From Candidatus Fermentithermobacillaceae bacterium (lineage in GTDB: Bacteria; Bacillota; Sulfobacillia; Fermentithermobacillales; Fermentithermobacillaceae), in assembly GCA_012842685.1 (NCBI GenBank), contig DUSI01000015.1, positions 1 through 35,660 of the forward strand: a DNA stretch of 35,660 bases. Reading direction: 5' to 3'. Every line of letters starts with the position of its first letter. The stretch's first letter is position 1. The notes under the pieces are model-generated. The model was not told the origin of the DNA, did not search any database, and saw only the letters and a list, made by a program, of their open reading frames with translations. The position numbers were made by a program, and so were the translations under genes. Below are positions 26,498 to 35,518 of this stretch, one piece after another.

Positions 26498-26950
26498 TCA
26501 ACGAAACATCTCCATAACCACCTTGGATTCTGCCAAAAGCTCCTGGGCCAATTTGTCGGGATAGGGGTTCTTGTACACCACCTTGACGATCCCGGCGTTT
26601 ATGAGCATCTTGGCGCAAGTGACACAAGGCTGGTTGGTGCAGTAGATAACGGCTCCCTCCAGGGAGATACCGTACCGCGCCGCCTGCACCAGCGCATTCT
26701 GCTCGGCATGCAGCCCCCTGCACATCTCGACGCGCTCTCCCGAGGGAATACCCAGCTTTTCCCTGAGGCAGCCGACCTCGCTGCAGTGGGCCAGACCCGT
26801 AGGAGCCCCGTTATAGCCCGTAGCCAGCACTCTCTTGTCTTTTACAACCACAGCCCCGACATTCCTCCTGAGGCACGTGGACCTCTTGGCTACGACCTCG
26901 GCAAGCTCCATAAAATACTCGTCCCAAGACGGCCTTTTGTGTTCCGCCAT
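26498..26950 (-). CDS. comEB: dCMP/deoxycytidylate deaminase family protein (ComEB-like)
   Basis: A 150-residue zinc-dependent deaminase. The catalytic motif H-A-E-Q-N-A-L and the zinc cysteines in Q-P-C-V-T-C-A-K are intact. The N-terminal half carries [10 protein letters not shown] and [18 protein letters not shown], typical of dCMP deaminases. A further H-C plus C-L-R-E segment in the middle is common in this subfamily and may form a second metal site. The product is dUMP for dTTP synthesis. A strong GGAGGAG precedes the ATG. It sits between the DUF436 gene and the wall-precursor genes. Confidence 0.92.
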
Positions 26951-26980: not shown

Positions 26981-27595
26981 TCAGCATGTCTTCGGGTTCT
27001 TTCCGAATTTCTCTTCGACCTCGTCCCAGGCGTATACGGCCCTCGCGCCGCCTATGAGCTTGGGTCTCGTCCTGGCGAGCGTAAGGTGGGCGTTTCCTAC
27101 GCTCTTCTGCTCAAGCCTCACGGGGACCGCTACCGGCCGGAGGTGCATCCCGATGAGGGTATCTCCTATGTCGATCCCCGCGTGGGCCTGGATAGACTCT
27201 ACAACCACGGGATCGTGGAACCTCCGGAGGGCAGTGGCGGCTGTGGCGCCTCCCGCCTTGGGAACCGGCAGGACCGTCACTTCGGTGAGGTTGTACTTCT
27301 CCTGAACCTCCCGCTCAACCACCAGAGCCCTGTTGAGGTGCTCGCAGCACTGGACGGCCAGGTGGACTCCCGTGCCTCTCAGGGCTTCTTGAACGCCGTC
27401 GAGGACGACCGCCGCTACATCGGTGCTTCCCGTCGAGCCGATCCGCTTGCCCTGGATCTCGCTGGTGGAGCAACCGAGGACAAGGATCTGCCCTGGCCGG
27501 AGTTTGGCCGCTTCAAGGAGCCCTTTGGTCGCCTTGTACACTTCTTCCTTGACCTTCTGGAGGTTTATCTCCATCTCTTCCCGTACGGCGTCCAT
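26981..27595 (-). CDS. ywlG: YwlG/TIGR01440 (DUF436) family protein
   Basis: A 204-residue protein of the DUF436 family. Typical segments are L-V-L-G-C-S-T-S-E-I-Q-G, GVHLAVQCCEHLNRALV and DTLIGMHLRPVAVPVRL. The conserved cysteine and E-H-L-N region looks like a small catalytic or ligand site, but no activity has been established for the family. The ATG follows the rpiB stop codon directly (TGA then ATG), so translation is coupled. In B. subtilis ywlG also follows rpiB (ywlF). Confidence 0.9.
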   Translation of the reverse strand: MDAVREEMEINLQKVKEEVYKATKGLLEAAKLRPGQILVLGCSTSEIQGKRIGSTGSTDVAAVVLDGVQEALRGTGVHLAVQCCEHLNRALVVEREVQEKYNLTEVTVLPVPKAGGATAATALRRFHDPVVVESIQAHAGIDIGDTLIGMHLRPVAVPVRLEQKSVGNAHLTLARTRPKLIGGARAVYAWDEVEEKFGKNPKTC

Positions 27596-28051
27596 TCAGC
27601 GTGCACCCCCATACTTCTTCTCGATTTCTTTCATTTTCTCAACCCGCCTGAGGTGGCGCCCTCCCTGGAAGGAGGCGCCCAGGAAGCTGGTCACTATGTC
27701 CCGGGCTAGGCCGCTACCCACGACGCGGGCCCCGATGCAGAGAACGTTGGCGTCGTTGTGCTCCCTGGCCGCGCGGGCCGAGAAAGTATCCGATACGGCC
27801 GCGGCCCTGATGCCGGGCACCTTGTTGGCCGCCATAGCCATGCCGAGGCCTGTCCCACAGACAAGTATGCCGAGGTCGGCCTCACCGGCCAGGATGGATT
27901 CGGAAACCTTAACGGCGAAATCCGGGTAGTCCACGGATTCGTCCGAGTCCGTCCCCAGGTCGATGGCTTCGTGTCCCATTTCCCTGAGTATGCCGGCTAT
28001 CTCGTCCTTGAGGCGGAAACCGGCGTGGTCGCTTCCCAGGGCGATCCTCAT
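27596..28051 (-). CDS. rpiB: Ribose 5-phosphate isomerase B
   Basis: A 151-residue RpiB/LacAB family isomerase interconverting ribose 5-phosphate and ribulose 5-phosphate. Motifs are A-L-G-S-D-H-A-G-F at the N-terminus, V-D-Y-P-D-F, the catalytic-cysteine loop V-C-G-T-G-L-G-M-A-M-A-A-N-K and the segment N-D-A-N-V-L-C-I-G-A-R. Three ATG codons lie in frame near the start. Only the third (28051) has GGAGG at eight bases, so it is preferred to 28066. It is followed directly by the DUF436 gene and preceded by the Sua5-YwlE fusion, the B. subtilis ywl order. Confidence 0.95.
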   Translation of the reverse strand: MRIALGSDHAGFRLKDEIAGILREMGHEAIDLGTDSDESVDYPDFAVKVSESILAGEADLGILVCGTGLGMAMAANKVPGIRAAAVSDTFSARAAREHNDANVLCIGARVVGSGLARDIVTSFLGASFQGGRHLRRVEKMKEIEKKYGGAR

Positions 28052-28085
28052 TTTCATTACCTCCATCCGAAACGGGCGAGCTCCT

Positions 28086-29612
28086 CTACCCGTGCGCCCG
28101 CTTTATTCTCTCACAAACGGCCCTGAGGCCGGATATCAGCTCATCCCTAGTTCTCAAATACGCTTCCTGGCCACACCCAAATGGGTCGCTCACGTCGCCG
28201 GCCACGGCCCCGCCAGAGGCTTCCGAGAGGGTCACCACCTTGCCGGCATAGGACGGATAGCGCTGGAACAGGGCACTCTTGTGGGACCTCGTCATCGTGA
28301 TGACGAGGTCCGCCCATTCGAGATCCTCTTCCGAAACCATCTTGGCCCTGTGTCCCGTGAGGTCGATCCCGCGCTCGGCCACCGCCCGGATGGCCTCCTG
28401 GGTCGCAGGCATGCCGTCGGCGGCGGCCGTCCCTCTTGAACGGACCTCCAGGCCTATCCCGGGGCATTCGGACCTCCACATCTCTCGCGCCAGGGCTTCG
28501 GCCATGGGGCTCCTGCAAGTGTTTCCCGTGCATACGAAGAGGATCTTCACCGGCCCAAGCCTTCGCCCCCCACTGGCTTTCTCGAGCCTGTTTTGGATAG
28601 CCAATCCGAGCCCCCTCTCGGGGAACGACTCGGCGAGGATTACGTCTGCGGAGATCTCGTCGCCGTACCGGAGCGCCGAAAACAGCCTCGAAGCCACCCG
28701 CGCCAGGTCGTGCCGCGGGCCCAGCTCCAGGACTACGAGCTTCCCGGCCCATTTCTCCGCCAATGGGGCATACGCCGGGAGGTTCTCCGTAGAGGAGAGG
28801 ATAAGTACCCGCTTCCCGTCAGAAAGCTCCGCTCCGGCGCGCAGCCTCACCGCCTCCGCTTGCTCAGGGGGACTCCCGGCCGCCAAGTAGACCGGCGCTT
28901 TCGGCGCGTAATGCCTGTATTTCATGCCGGGCGAAGGAGGCGGGCCGTCAGACGGCACCCCAGACGCGACCTGGACGTCGCCCAGGACTCTCCTCAGGTC
29001 TTCGAGAGATAGGCCGCCGGGACGCAGTATCCTCGGGACGGGACCGGTTATGTCGAGCACCGTGGATTCGACTCCGATGCCGGATGGTCCGCCATCCACG
29101 ATGATGTCTACCCGCCCGTTTAGGTCCTCAAACGTGTCTTCAAACGTAGTCGGGCTGGGCCGCCCCGATAAGTTGGCAGAAGGCGCCGCCACAGGTACCC
29201 CCGCGAGGTCGATGAGCCTCTGGGCCACCGGATGGTCGGGCATCCTTATCGCCACCGTCGGAAGGTTTGCGGTGACGATGGGAGGCACAAGCTCCGATTT
29301 CTTAAAGAGCAGCGTAAGGGGACCCGGCCAGAAGGTCTCCATGACCCTCAGGGCCGCCTCGCTTATCTCGGCGACCAGAGGCGCGACGGCCTCCGGCCTC
29401 GAAACGTGCACGATGAGTGGATTGTCCTGGGGGCGGCCTTTGGCTTCAAATATCCGCATTACCGCCTCGGGCAGGAGTGCGTTGGCTCCGAGGCCATACA
29501 CCGTCTCGGTGGGGAATGCCACCAGTCCCCCGCGGCGGAGGACTTCGGCGCACGGCACTAGTACCGACTCGTCCCTTGCCAGAGGGTCTACCCTCACGAC
29601 CTTAGTTTCCAT
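28086..29612 (-). CDS. Fused threonylcarbamoyl-AMP synthase (Sua5/YwlC) and LMW phosphatase, probable protein-arginine phosphatase (YwlE)
   Basis: A 508-residue two-enzyme fusion. Residues 1 to about 345 are a full Sua5: F-P-T-E-T-V-Y-G-L-G, K-G-R-P near residue 56, A-P-S-A-N-L-S-G-R, the linker S-P-G-M-K-Y-R-H-Y-A-P and the C-terminal Sua5 domain. This part makes threonylcarbamoyl-AMP for tRNA t6A. Residues 355-508 are a complete low-molecular-weight phosphatase with the P-loop C361-T-G-N-T-C-R367-S and the acid Asp476 in S-D-P-F-G. Thr365 corresponds to Thr11 of YwlE, the residue linked to phosphoarginine specificity. In B. subtilis ywlC and ywlE are separate genes in this same neighbourhood. 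There is no stop or frameshift at the junction. An in-frame GTG at 28550 with AAGG upstream could also allow separate synthesis of the phosphatase. Confidence 0.93.
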   Translation of the reverse strand: METKVVRVDPLARDESVLVPCAEVLRRGGLVAFPTETVYGLGANALLPEAVMRIFEAKGRPQDNPLIVHVSRPEAVAPLVAEISEAALRVMETFWPGPLTLLFKKSELVPPIVTANLPTVAIRMPDHPVAQRLIDLAGVPVAAPSANLSGRPSPTTFEDTFEDLNGRVDIIVDGGPSGIGVESTVLDITGPVPRILRPGGLSLEDLRRVLGDVQVASGVPSDGPPPSPGMKYRHYAPKAPVYLAAGSPPEQAEAVRLRAGAELSDGKRVLILSSTENLPAYAPLAEKWAGKLVVLELGPRHDLARVASRLFSALRYGDEISADVILAESFPERGLGLAIQNRLEKASGGRRLGPVKILFVCTGNTCRSPMAEALAREMWRSECPGIGLEVRSRGTAAADGMPATQEAIRAVAERGIDLTGHRAKMVSEEDLEWADLVITMTRSHKSALFQRYPSYAGKVVTLSEASGGAVAGDVSDPFGCGQEAYLRTRDELISGLRAVCERIKRAHG

Positions 29613-29645: not shown

Positions 29646-30512
29646 CTAGGTCGCATGCGTCCACGCTACTACCACGCGGTCCTTCCCTCCGTAATCTTTG
29701 AGGACCTCCACTCCGGCCCAGGTCTCTCTATCTTCCATGATAATACCTCTACAAGCTTCTCCCTGATCTGAGCCGATCTCCATGATAAGCCGCCCGCCGG
29801 GTTTCAGGACGGCCGGAACCTCACCGGCTATCCTCCGGATTATCCGGAGCCCCGATTTCCCTCCATCCAGGGCGATCCGGGGCTCGTACTCGCGTATCGT
29901 CGGAGAGAGAGTCTCGATCTCGTCTGTGGGGATGTAGGGCGGGTTGGCTGTGAGGATGTCGAATTTCCCGGAAAACCCTGCCTTAAGCAGGGGCTCCACC
30001 AGGTCTCCAACGTAGAACGCAACCCGGTCCACAACGCCCAGCCTCTCCGCGTTCTCCCGCGCCAGGTCCACCGCTTCCCGTGAGATGTCGCTCAAGACCA
30101 CCCGGGACTCGGGGATCGCCTTGGCGATGGAAAGGCCGATGACTCCGGAACCGCAGCATATGTCGGCGACGAGGGGAGAAGGGTTACCCGACAAGAGCCG
30201 GATGGCGGTCTCGGCCACCAGTTCCGTCTCCGGACGGGGGACAAGCACCCTGCGGTCTATGAGGAACTCGTGGCCCATGAATTCCCTGAACCCTCTGATG
30301 TAGGCGATGGGCTCTCCAGACGCGCGCCTCTCGAGGAATCCGTTGTACGCGGCGAAGGCTTCTTCGCTCACGGGGGTTTCAGGGTGGAGGTACACAAACT
30401 GAGAGGGCTTACCCAGGGCGAAGGCAAGGAGGAGCGCTGCGTCCCGGGCAGCCGAGTCGGACTTCCCCGCAAGGTGACGCCTTCCCAAGGCCAGCGCCTC
30501 GCCTACGGTCAT
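29646..30512 (-). CDS. prmC: Peptide chain release factor glutamine methyltransferase
   Basis: A 288-residue class I SAM methyltransferase that methylates the glutamine of the release-factor GGQ motif. The SAM loop is [13 protein letters not shown] and the substrate-gripping motif is T-A-N-P-P-Y-I-P. The N-terminal helical domain contains [13 protein letters not shown], typical of PrmC. Its ATG overlaps the prfA stop codon (ATGA at 30509-30512), so enzyme and substrate are translationally coupled. Confidence 0.96.
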
Positions 30513-31612
30513 ACCTGCGACGCTTCCTCGAGCCGCTTTCTGTCTTCTTCCGCAAGCAGCGCGTCGATGAGTTCGTCGATATCTCCGTCCAGGAATTCCG
30601 TCAGCCTGTGGGTCGTGTAGCCGATCCTGTGGTCGGTGACCCTGTTCTGCGGGAAATTGTAGGTGCGGATCTTCTCGGCGCGCTCGCCCGTACCTACCTG
30701 GGACCTCCTGGCCTGGGTGAGTTCCCTGTTCCTCTGTTCCTGGGCCAGGGCCAGAAGTCTCGACTTAAGGATCCTCATGGCCCGCTCCTTATTCTGGAGC
30801 TGGGACCTCTCATCCTGGCAGGTGACAACGAGTCCCGTAGGCAGGTGGGTTATCCTCACCGCAGAGTAGGTGGTATTCACTCCCTGGCCGCCTTTGCCCG
30901 ACGAGCAGTAGGTGTCGATCCGGAGGTCGTCGGGGTCGATCTCGATGTCGTCCACTTCCTCGGATTCGGGCAGGACCGCCACCGTCGCGGTGGAAGTGTG
31001 GATGCGGCCGCCCGATTCGGTGGCAGGTATCCTCTGCACTCTGTGGACGCCGCCTTCATGCTTGAGCCGCCTGTAGGCGCCCTTGCCGGATATGGCGAAG
31101 ATGATCTCCTTGAAACCTCCGAGGTCAGTCGGGCTCGAGGTGAGCACCTCGAGCTTCCACCGCCTGTCCTCGGCGTAGCGGCCGTACATGCGGAAGAGCT
31201 CCGCGGCAAAGAGAGCCGCCTCTTCCCCTCCTGTCCCGGCTCTGATCTCCATGATGACGTTCTTGTCATCGTTGGGGTCTTTGGGGACCAGGGAAAGCCT
31301 GATCTCCTTTTCAAGCTGCGCCTTGGTCTCCTCAAGGGAAGCCAGCTCTTCCTCGGCCAGCTTCCTCAGTTCTTTGTCTTCTTCGGTCTCGAGGATCTCC
31401 CGGCTCCCGGCTATGTCGTCCAGTACCCGCAGGTACTTCTTGTACAGGTCCACGGTGCCTTCGATGCGCGCCCTCTCCGTGGCCAGCTGCCGGTACTTCT
31501 TCGGGTCTGAGAAGACCTCGGGCTTTTCCAGCTCGGAAGTGAGGAAATCGTAACGCTCGACAAGGGAGTCAAGCTTGCCGGCGAAAGTCGCTCCTTCGTA
31601 AGCGGTACTCAT
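30509..31612 (-). CDS. prfA: Peptide chain release factor 1
   Basis: A 367-residue RF1. The catalytic motif GGQ is at residues 241-243 in [10 protein letters not shown]. The stop-codon-reading tripeptide P-A-T is in [20 protein letters not shown]. The P-A-T and not S-P-F signature identifies RF1, which reads UAA and UAG, rather than RF2. Length is normal. The ATG overlaps the end of the upstream DUF1385 gene (ATGA), with GAGGTGG before it, and its own stop overlaps prmC. The three genes thus form one coupled unit. Confidence 0.97.
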
Positions 31613-32932: not shown

Positions 32933-32961
32933 AGTATAGCACGGTTCGGCTACCTCATCAA
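32933..32961 (-). promoter_or_regulatory. Sigma-A promoter for rpmE
   Basis: TTGATG (32956-32961), a 17-base spacer and TATACT (32933-32938) on the minus strand match TTGACA-N17-TATAAT at 4/6 and 5/6 positions. The -35 lies inside the last codons of rho. The predicted start point is about 30 bases before the rpmE ATG. Confidence 0.65.
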
Positions 32962-35358
32962 CGCCAGTCTCCTCTTCAGGATGGGCAGCGCCTCCCTGTT
33001 GCTGCTTGTCTTGCTCAGGAGGTCTATGAGGGCCTCGAGGACCTTATCTGGCTCGAGGTCGTTGGTCATCTTCCTGAAGAGCCACATGGCCTCCATCTCT
33101 TCCTTGGTCTGCAGGAGCTCCTCTTTGCGGGTACCCGACCTCTTGATGTCTATGGCCGGGAAGATCCTGCGCTCAGAGAGCTTCCTGTCGAGGTGGACTT
33201 CCATGTTGCCGGTTCCTTTGAACTCTTCGTAGATGACGTCGTCCATCCTGGAGCCGGTGTCTATGAGGCAGGTGCCAAGTATGGTAAGGCTGCCGCCTTC
33301 TTCTATATTTCTGGCAGCGCCGAAGAACTTCTTGGGCTTGTTGAACGCAGCCGGATCCATACCTCCCGAGAGCGTCCTGCCCGAAGTGGGCTCTATGAGG
33401 TTGTAGGCCCTGGTCATCCTGGTGATGCTGTCCAGGAGCACCACGACGTCTCTCCCGGTCTCGACGAGGCGCTTGGCGCGCTCGAGGACCATCTCGGCGA
33501 CCCTGGCGTGGTTCTCCGGAGGCTCGTCGAAAGTGGACGCTATAACCTCCCCGTTCACCGAACGCTGCATGTCGGTGACTTCCTCCGGTCGCTCGTCTAT
33601 GAGGAGGACCATTAGGTACGTCTCCGGATGGTTGGTCGTTATCGCGTTGGCTATGTTCTTGAGGAGGACCGTCTTACCGGCTTTGGGCGGCGAGACGATG
33701 AGTCCCCTCTGTCCCTTGCCGATGGGCGCCACGAGGTCGAGGAGCCTTCCGGAGATGTTGTCCTTCGTGGTCTCGAGCTTGAACCTTTCATTCGGGAATA
33801 TGGGCGTAAGGCCTTCGAAGTTGGGTCGCTCCCGGGCAAGTTCGGGATCCTCACCGTTTATGGCTTCTATGCGGAGAAGCCCGTAGTACCTCTCTGTATC
33901 GTGAGGCGGGCGCACCTGCCCGGAAACCAGGTCTCCCGTCCTGAGGTCAAACTTCCTGATCTGGGAAGGCGAGATGTAAATATCGTCCTTGCTCGGGAAG
34001 TAGAACGCAGGCCTCAAGAATCCGTACCCTTCGTTCAATATCTCCAGGAGGCCTTCGGCGAAGATGAGCCCTCCGGCCTGGGTGCGGGCCTTGAGGATCT
34101 CGAAGACCAGTTCCTTCTTGCGGAAGCTCGAGTACCCGGCGATCCCCAGCTCTCTGGCTATCCGCTGGAGGTCAACGAGGGTCATGTTGGAAAGCTCCCG
34201 CATGCTAGGCCCCGCGTCGGGTCTTGCGCGAGGGGCCACTTTGGCCGGACGAACGTAGAGAACATCGGCAGGCGGCTCCTGCTGGGCCTGGAGCTGCCTT
34301 GCGTCCCGCCCGTCAAACGTCCTCTGCTCCGGGGCAGGCCTCAGATCTGCCTGTTCGGACGCCGGCGTCCTGAGCCTCGGAGTCTCCGGCGTAACCCGCT
34401 GGAACCCAGGCCGCTCCAGCCGCTCGGCATTAGGCCGCTCCTGCACGGCGCGGGGAGCGATCTTCGGCTGGGCAGGGCGCTCTGCCTGAGCTCCGGGGAC
34501 GGAGCTCGGCTGATACGGGTAGCTCCCGGGGAACGGCCTGTCGGTTATGGTGCGGCCGAACCTGTCGGGTGCCTGGACGCGCGGAAATTCAAGGGCGGTC
34601 TTCTCTTCGAGAGCCGCTTCTCTGGGCGGCGCTCCGGCCGGCACGACTTCTTCGGAGACCGGCGGCATCTCGGCGGGAACCGGCTCCATGGGTACCGGGG
34701 CAGGGGGTACGGGCTGGGCCGGCTCCTCCGCTGGCGTACCTACCTGGGGAGGAACGCTCTCCTGCGCGGCTACTTCCTGTTCACGGGCCTCCGTCACGGG
34801 AGCTCCGGCCTCAGGAGGCACGGCTACATCTAGAGAGGATACGGTTCCACCGGCTTCGCTGGGAGAAACTTGGGAAATGGTGTCGCCTTCGACGGTTTCT
34901 TCGGACTTCTTCCTCGTACGGCGGGCTGCTCGGGTTTTCGCGGGCTTCTCAGGTTCTGCCTCAATAGGCCCTGCTTCAGGGGGAGGCACGGAAGATACGG
35001 TCTCCTCCCCTTCGCCCGGAGGTTTCCCCTTGCGCCTACCGCCACGCCTCTTACCGGTATCCTCGGCGACCTCAATAGCCGCAGCACCCTCAGGCTGCTC
35101 TTCCTTTGCCGTCTCAGACGTCACGGCGCTCTCACCGGTCTCAGGCGAGGCTTCTCCGGAGGTGGCCTTCCTTGTGGTCCTGCGGGGACGTTTGGCTGGG
35201 GGCGTTTCTTGGGGGACCTCGGCGGCCTGGACCTCTTGGGTGGCTTCACCGGCCGCCCCTTCCTCTGGGCCCGTTTTGGTCCTTACCCGCCGCCTGGTTC
35301 TGGACGTCTCCGGCGGCGCGTCCGCATTTTTGGTCTCTTTGGTTTCTTCCTTTTGCAT
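32950..35358 (-). CDS. rho: Transcription termination factor Rho with a ~385-residue disordered N-terminal extension
   Basis: About 802 residues. From the methionine encoded at 34203 a standard Rho of about 417 residues follows: an N-terminal helical domain ([15 protein letters not shown]), the RNA-binding cold-shock domain (L-N-E-G-Y-G-F-L-R), Walker A in S-P-P-K-A-G-K-T, Walker B in [10 protein letters not shown] and the R-loop segment R-S-G-T-R-K-E-E-L. The preceding ~385 residues are unusually long for Rho, rich in Pro, Ala, Glu, Thr and Arg, with several basic clusters (such as K-R-P-R-R-T-T-R-K and R-R-G-G-R-R-K-G-K) separated by acidic stretches. It is probably disordered and may add nucleic-acid contacts. 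GTG at 35361 or ATG at 35358 could be the start; both follow AGGAGA. Confidence 0.96.
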
Positions 35359-35518
35359 CACGTCACATCTCCTATGGGCGTCGGCAAACCTGGAATCCGC
35401 TGCCCGAGCATTTGGAAGGATAAGGATATATGGAAACTGGCGACCCGATAGTGCGCTTACCGGGCATTCATAGACTTATGGGGACACATCGGTAGGCGGA
35501 ATCTCGCTTTCCTACTCG

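Follow-up and report, generated by a model that had tools for sequence, protein, structure and literature searches.

Fusion of Sua5 with a YwlE-type phosphatase in Candidatus Fermentithermobacillales, a probable bifunctional enzyme

A single gene encoding a Sua5 protein joined in frame to a low-molecular-weight (LMW) phosphatase of the YwlE type was found at positions 28086..29612 (minus strand) of the window, the whole stretch of 35,660 nucleotides analyzed here from a Candidatus Fermentithermobacillaceae bacterium (contig DUSI01000015.1). We consider its product most probably (roughly 0.8) to be a bifunctional enzyme derived from two fused neighbour genes, in which the active sites would most likely be independent and co-made in a 1:1 ratio. 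Sua5 starts the synthesis of t6A, an essential and universal tRNA modification, and its product, threonylcarbamoyl-AMP, is consumed by TsaD, the next enzyme of the pathway. The N-terminal two thirds of the fused protein are predicted to make threonylcarbamoyl-AMP for tRNA t6A synthesis, and the C-terminal third is predicted to act as a phosphatase of the YwlE type, which would dephosphorylate McsB-marked arginines and so spare proteins from ClpCP. The two active sites are expected to work independently, and the main effect of the fusion would be that an essential housekeeping gene yields both enzymes at once and in equal number. Both activities are likely, and we infer them, together with the 1:1 dosage.

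The gene forms a single uninterrupted frame on the minus strand, with an ATG start and 508 codons for 508 amino acids, and several stops occur on the plus strand of the same interval. The boundaries given in the sequence-only reading were exact, with the strand now assigned as minus. The protein consists of a YrdC/TsaC-like catalytic domain (residues 23-199, 29016..29546; PF01300 Sua5_yciO_yrdC, 2.8e-63), a SUA5 C-terminal domain (residues 202-348, 28569..29009; PF03481 Sua5_C, 1.6e-31) and an LMW phosphatase domain of YwlE type (residues 357-497, 28122..28544; PF01451 LMWPc, 6.9e-31), all on the minus strand and all with Pfam matches far exceeding the cut-offs. The N-terminal part was identified as an L-threonylcarbamoyladenylate synthase (NCBIfam TIGR00057, 208 bits against a cut-off of 123). 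For the phosphatase domain no NCBIfam arginine-phosphatase model matched, the best match being Wzb, below its cut-off. The AlphaFold2 model of the fusion is confident throughout (mean pLDDT 95.2, pTM 0.84), with residues 3-355 aligning to the P. abyssi Sua5 6f87_A (Z 50.1, 338 residues, 1.5 A) and residues 354-505 to B. subtilis YwlE (Z 26.8, 148 residues, 1.3 A), the matches among YwlE structures being 4etn (Z 26.8) and 4kk3 (Z 26.5). Pfam, motifs and structure matches together bear out the earlier claim that a complete Sua5 is joined in frame to a complete LMW phosphatase.

The Sua5 part and the phosphatase are separated by a short junction of about eight residues (349-356, 28545..28568, minus strand). 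A GTG codon with a weak purine stretch occurs in this junction at residue 355, and ATG is found there in three members of the genus. A conserved internal start for a free YwlE was nevertheless rejected, because other members of the family have CTG, TTA, CTT or GTA at that position.

The motifs of both active sites were located on the minus strand and compared across fifteen aligned fusions. The KxR motif (K58-R60, 29433..29441) and the SxN motif (S145-N147, 29172..29180) of Sua5 are invariant, as is the HY of the Sua5 inter-domain linker (H234-Y235, 28908..28913), and entry 6f89 of P. abyssi Sua5 has mutations at an H and a Y with the same numbering. In the phosphatase part, the P-loop CTGNTCRS (28509..28532) provides the nucleophile C361, the specificity position T365 and R367, with C361, G363, N364, T365, C366, R367 and S368 all invariant, and the general-acid motif DPFG (D476, 28176..28187) has an invariant D476-P477. 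The YrdC and SUA5 domains with their KxR and SxN motifs are those of Sua5/TsaC2, and the LMW-PTP fold, the CX5R P-loop, the DP general acid and the Thr at P-loop position 5 are those of YwlE. At this fifth variable position Thr directs the enzyme to phosphoarginine and Ile to phosphotyrosine (PMC8001253), so the invariance of Thr365 upholds the sequence-only reading, which had pointed to a Thr at the position tied to arginine-phosphate specificity. The dN/dS ratio is low in both domains, with dS values near saturation.

We searched 61 genomes for the fused frame and found it intact in 21 of them, including the complete chromosome (G004, L087; 2316832 bases) of Ca. Fermentithermobacillus carboniphilus. 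Within the order Ca. Fermentithermobacillales (Bacillota) it is intact in fifteen of the seventeen genomes, with no match in the other two; twelve of the fourteen genomes of the family and all three of the sister family contain it. Six further genomes with the fusion (G023, G044, G048, G053, G054 and G059) belong to other families of the class, at least six of which contain fusions, another fusion with an intact P-loop was found in one gut Clostridia genome (L092), and some Lachnospiraceae also have the fused form. The same two-domain architecture, for which a search across Bacillota had been proposed, therefore does occur elsewhere in the phylum. The fusion is genuine, and neither chance nor an assembly error, because the domains are joined in frame with no stop and as one frame in 15/17 genomes of the order. 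We also regard the join as old.

The fused gene lies within a cluster of housekeeping genes that are all read on the minus strand. Upstream are prfA (30509..31612; TIGR00019), which overlaps prmC by 4 bases, and prmC itself (29646..30512; TIGR03534), 33 bases from the fusion. Downstream are rpiB (ywlF; 27596..28066; TIGR01120) at a distance of 19 bases, a ywlG-type TIGR01440/DUF436 protein (26981..27595; Pfam and NCBIfam) and a ComEB-like dCMP deaminase (26498..26950; PF00383), for which ComEB was the best NCBIfam match, below cut-off. In unfused relatives the order prfA-prmC-sua5-ywlE-rpiB-ywlG-comEB is kept, with sua5 and ywlE side by side and often overlapping, as in G037 where the two genes overlap by a few bases. 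As judged from this gene order, two operon neighbours in the prfA-prmC-sua5-ywlE-rpiB cluster collapsed into the fused gene, which agrees with the earlier suggestion of a gene fusion between neighbouring genes. The model for that suggestion, B. subtilis, holds in part: its ywlC and ywlE are close but not direct neighbours, the gene immediately upstream of ywlE being ywlD (PMC10448178). In the tree of Sua5 the fifteen fusions of the order form one group (SH-aLRT 99), and the tree as a whole needs eight changes of fusion state, at least three of them forced by well supported (starred) branches; on this phylogeny, therefore, the genes were joined at least twice or a join was reversed.

Several variants of the locus were also observed. 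In G025 (L018/L033) the Sua5 and the phosphatase share a frame that is split by a single TGA, one codon from a fusion. Linker length in the fusions varies between a few residues and dozens, without conservation, and the linkers of L017, L028, L029 and L030 (genus g4, G044) consist of dozens of low-complexity, charged residues. Elsewhere in the window, the Rho protein (32950-35361, minus strand, 803 aa) has an N-terminal extension of ~386 residues ahead of its Rho_N domain, and no Pfam or NCBIfam model matched this extension.

It is a real possibility, although not the one we would favour, that the fusion is neutral, with overlapping and co-translated genes being easily joined in frame and co-synthesis as the sole effect. 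This reading is favoured by the unfused relatives, in which the two genes share a few bases or are split by one stop codon, and by the variable linkers that are not conserved, whereas the retention of the fused state across the whole order (fifteen rows, SH-aLRT 99) speaks against it.

The bifunctional reading also agrees with the remainder of the genome, which is 97.5% complete and has no Sua5 match and no LMW phosphatase other than the fused protein. TsaD is present, and McsB was detected with PF00217 at 9.4e-70. The gene order ctsR-mcsA-mcsB-clpC-radA was observed in L025, with genes named by reading their translations, and McsB was found in 58 of the 61 genomes. Both mcsB and clpC, which the sequence-only reading had proposed to look for, are thus in the genome within a ctsR-mcsA-mcsB-clpC operon. 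The presence of this operon, with no other LMW phosphatase, supports a putative arginine-phosphatase role of the phosphatase part, and as the only Sua5 match the fused form would have to supply threonylcarbamoyl-AMP if t6A is made. The predicted pieces for a phosphoarginine cycle and for t6A synthesis are present, and the fused gene is by homology one part of each.

A single chain would join a universal tRNA modification to a bacterial protein-arginine degradation mark, and such a link accords with the report that TsaD of B. subtilis carries phosphate on Arg282, is broken down by way of McsB/ClpCP and is kept stable by YwlE, with McsB and YwlE setting its stability (PMC7546277). These observations in B. 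subtilis favour a functional coupling, in which Sua5 would bring the phosphatase to the t6A machinery and keep the marks of McsB off TsaD so that t6A synthesis continues under stress. The repeated occurrence of the fusion and its constant adjacency favour it too. Arg282, which we take to be the Arg of GGVAANxxLR in the B. subtilis protein, has a candidate equivalent in this genome's TsaD (GGVAANSLLRR). However, this Arg occurs in every relative in which the motif was found, fused or unfused, so that it does not discriminate and was set aside as a marker of coupling. The fact that ywlE has several other neighbours in the same housekeeping cluster weighs against coupling as well, and we therefore retain it as a tentative hypothesis, less probable than a neutral join.

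The phosphatase part might also act on phosphotyrosine or on a small phosphoester and not on phosphoarginine. Its LMW-PTP fold is shared with phosphotyrosine enzymes, which were also matched by Foldseek and VIA-align. This is improbable given that the specificity position holds Thr, and never Ile, in 15/15 aligned fusions, that the best structural matches are YwlE and a YwlE-type enzyme from T. tengcongensis, and that McsB is in the genome.

A different picture was observed in Lachnospiraceae, where our scan of public genomes found the P-loop of the phosphatase next to or fused with sua5 to be mostly broken (SGTDSARGP, SDSDTCRGP and AESGTSRAP, among others); the DPYG loop often survives. We sampled 70 genomes of the family to which L098 belongs, and 36 of them have the domain at the loci examined; the catalytic Cys or Arg is lost in 28 of these 36, and six of the 36 are fused. 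Loci of this dead phosphatase family were observed in fused form (L097, L098, L102, L108, L133) and as separate genes (L094, L095, L101, L103, L104, L111, L137, L143, L146, L154; also L168-L217). Even so, the domain is unlikely to be junk, because a stretch RGLVVLFPEPxNQKAEAV is shared, a close pair of domains shows low dN with near-saturated dS, and the predicted structure still has the LMW-PTP fold (pLDDT 92.2), a YwlE (4pic) being the nearest solved structure for that half. The retention of a dead domain means that its presence alone is no proof of phosphatase function, and it raises the separate question of the role of the domain without its chemistry.

Where the sua5-linked phosphatase has an intact CxGNTCRS, McsB tends to be present: it was found in 9/9 genomes with the intact motif against 3/16 with a non-canonical one (p=1e-4). 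This comparison, like the tests below, ignores shared ancestry and includes some incomplete genomes. Among the 36 Lachnospiraceae, the two-by-two test of P-loop Cys and Arg against any McsB match was not significant (p=0.086). For the full CxGNTCRS, McsB was found in 4/5 genomes against 5/31 (p=0.009), and a requirement for McsB above 200 bits, a threshold picked after seeing the data, gave p=8e-5. Diverged McsB proteins (149-179 bits) occur together with a degenerate P-loop in L101, L103 and L104, which suggests that the phosphoarginine system may be in the course of being lost or altered in these genomes. One could speculate, with considerable doubt, that the phosphatase is a functional partner of Sua5 that guards TsaD or the t6A machinery from arginine marking in lineages with McsB, and that in those Lachnospiraceae that lack canonical McsB it has turned into a catalytically dead partner and gained a new conserved surface.

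For the fusion itself, a mainly structural or regulatory domain serving Sua5 is very improbable: the survival of the Lachnospiraceae domain after loss of Cys or Arg and its newly conserved stretch would fit such a role, but the catalytic residues are all intact in Ca. Fermentithermobacillales. A sequencing or assembly artefact, including the stop or frameshift between the domains that had been named as grounds for refutation, is effectively refuted by the same conserved, intact frame in 21/61 genomes, one of them a complete chromosome.

In our literature searches we found no report of a Sua5-LMW phosphatase fusion, and a survey of the Sua5 family (PMC10321239) does not use the word "phosphatase", while domain databases may list such a fusion. 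Compared with Sua5/TsaC2 (P. abyssi 6f87, T. maritima 9d3h), the protein shares the two-domain Sua5 fold and the KxR/SxN and HY motifs, with 48% identity to 6f87 over 338 residues (Z 50.1), and differs by the extra C-terminal phosphatase domain. With YwlE (B. subtilis 4kk3, G. stearothermophilus 4pic) it has in common the CTGNTCRS P-loop, DPFG and the gene neighbourhood, the B. subtilis enzyme showing about 43% identity to the phosphatase part (Z 26.5-26.8), but YwlE is a free-standing protein of about 150 aa whereas here it is a domain of a larger protein. Sua5 is also joined to other enzymes in TsaN (8ide), a natural TsaD-TsaC-SUA5-TcdA fusion, although its partners are enzymes of t6A/ct6A synthesis and not a phosphatase. 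Finally, HypF and TobZ likewise have a YrdC-like domain in a multi-enzyme chain, where it is fused to a Kae1-like domain (PMC10321239, PMC9654439), but they differ in their chemistry and partners and are without an LMW phosphatase.
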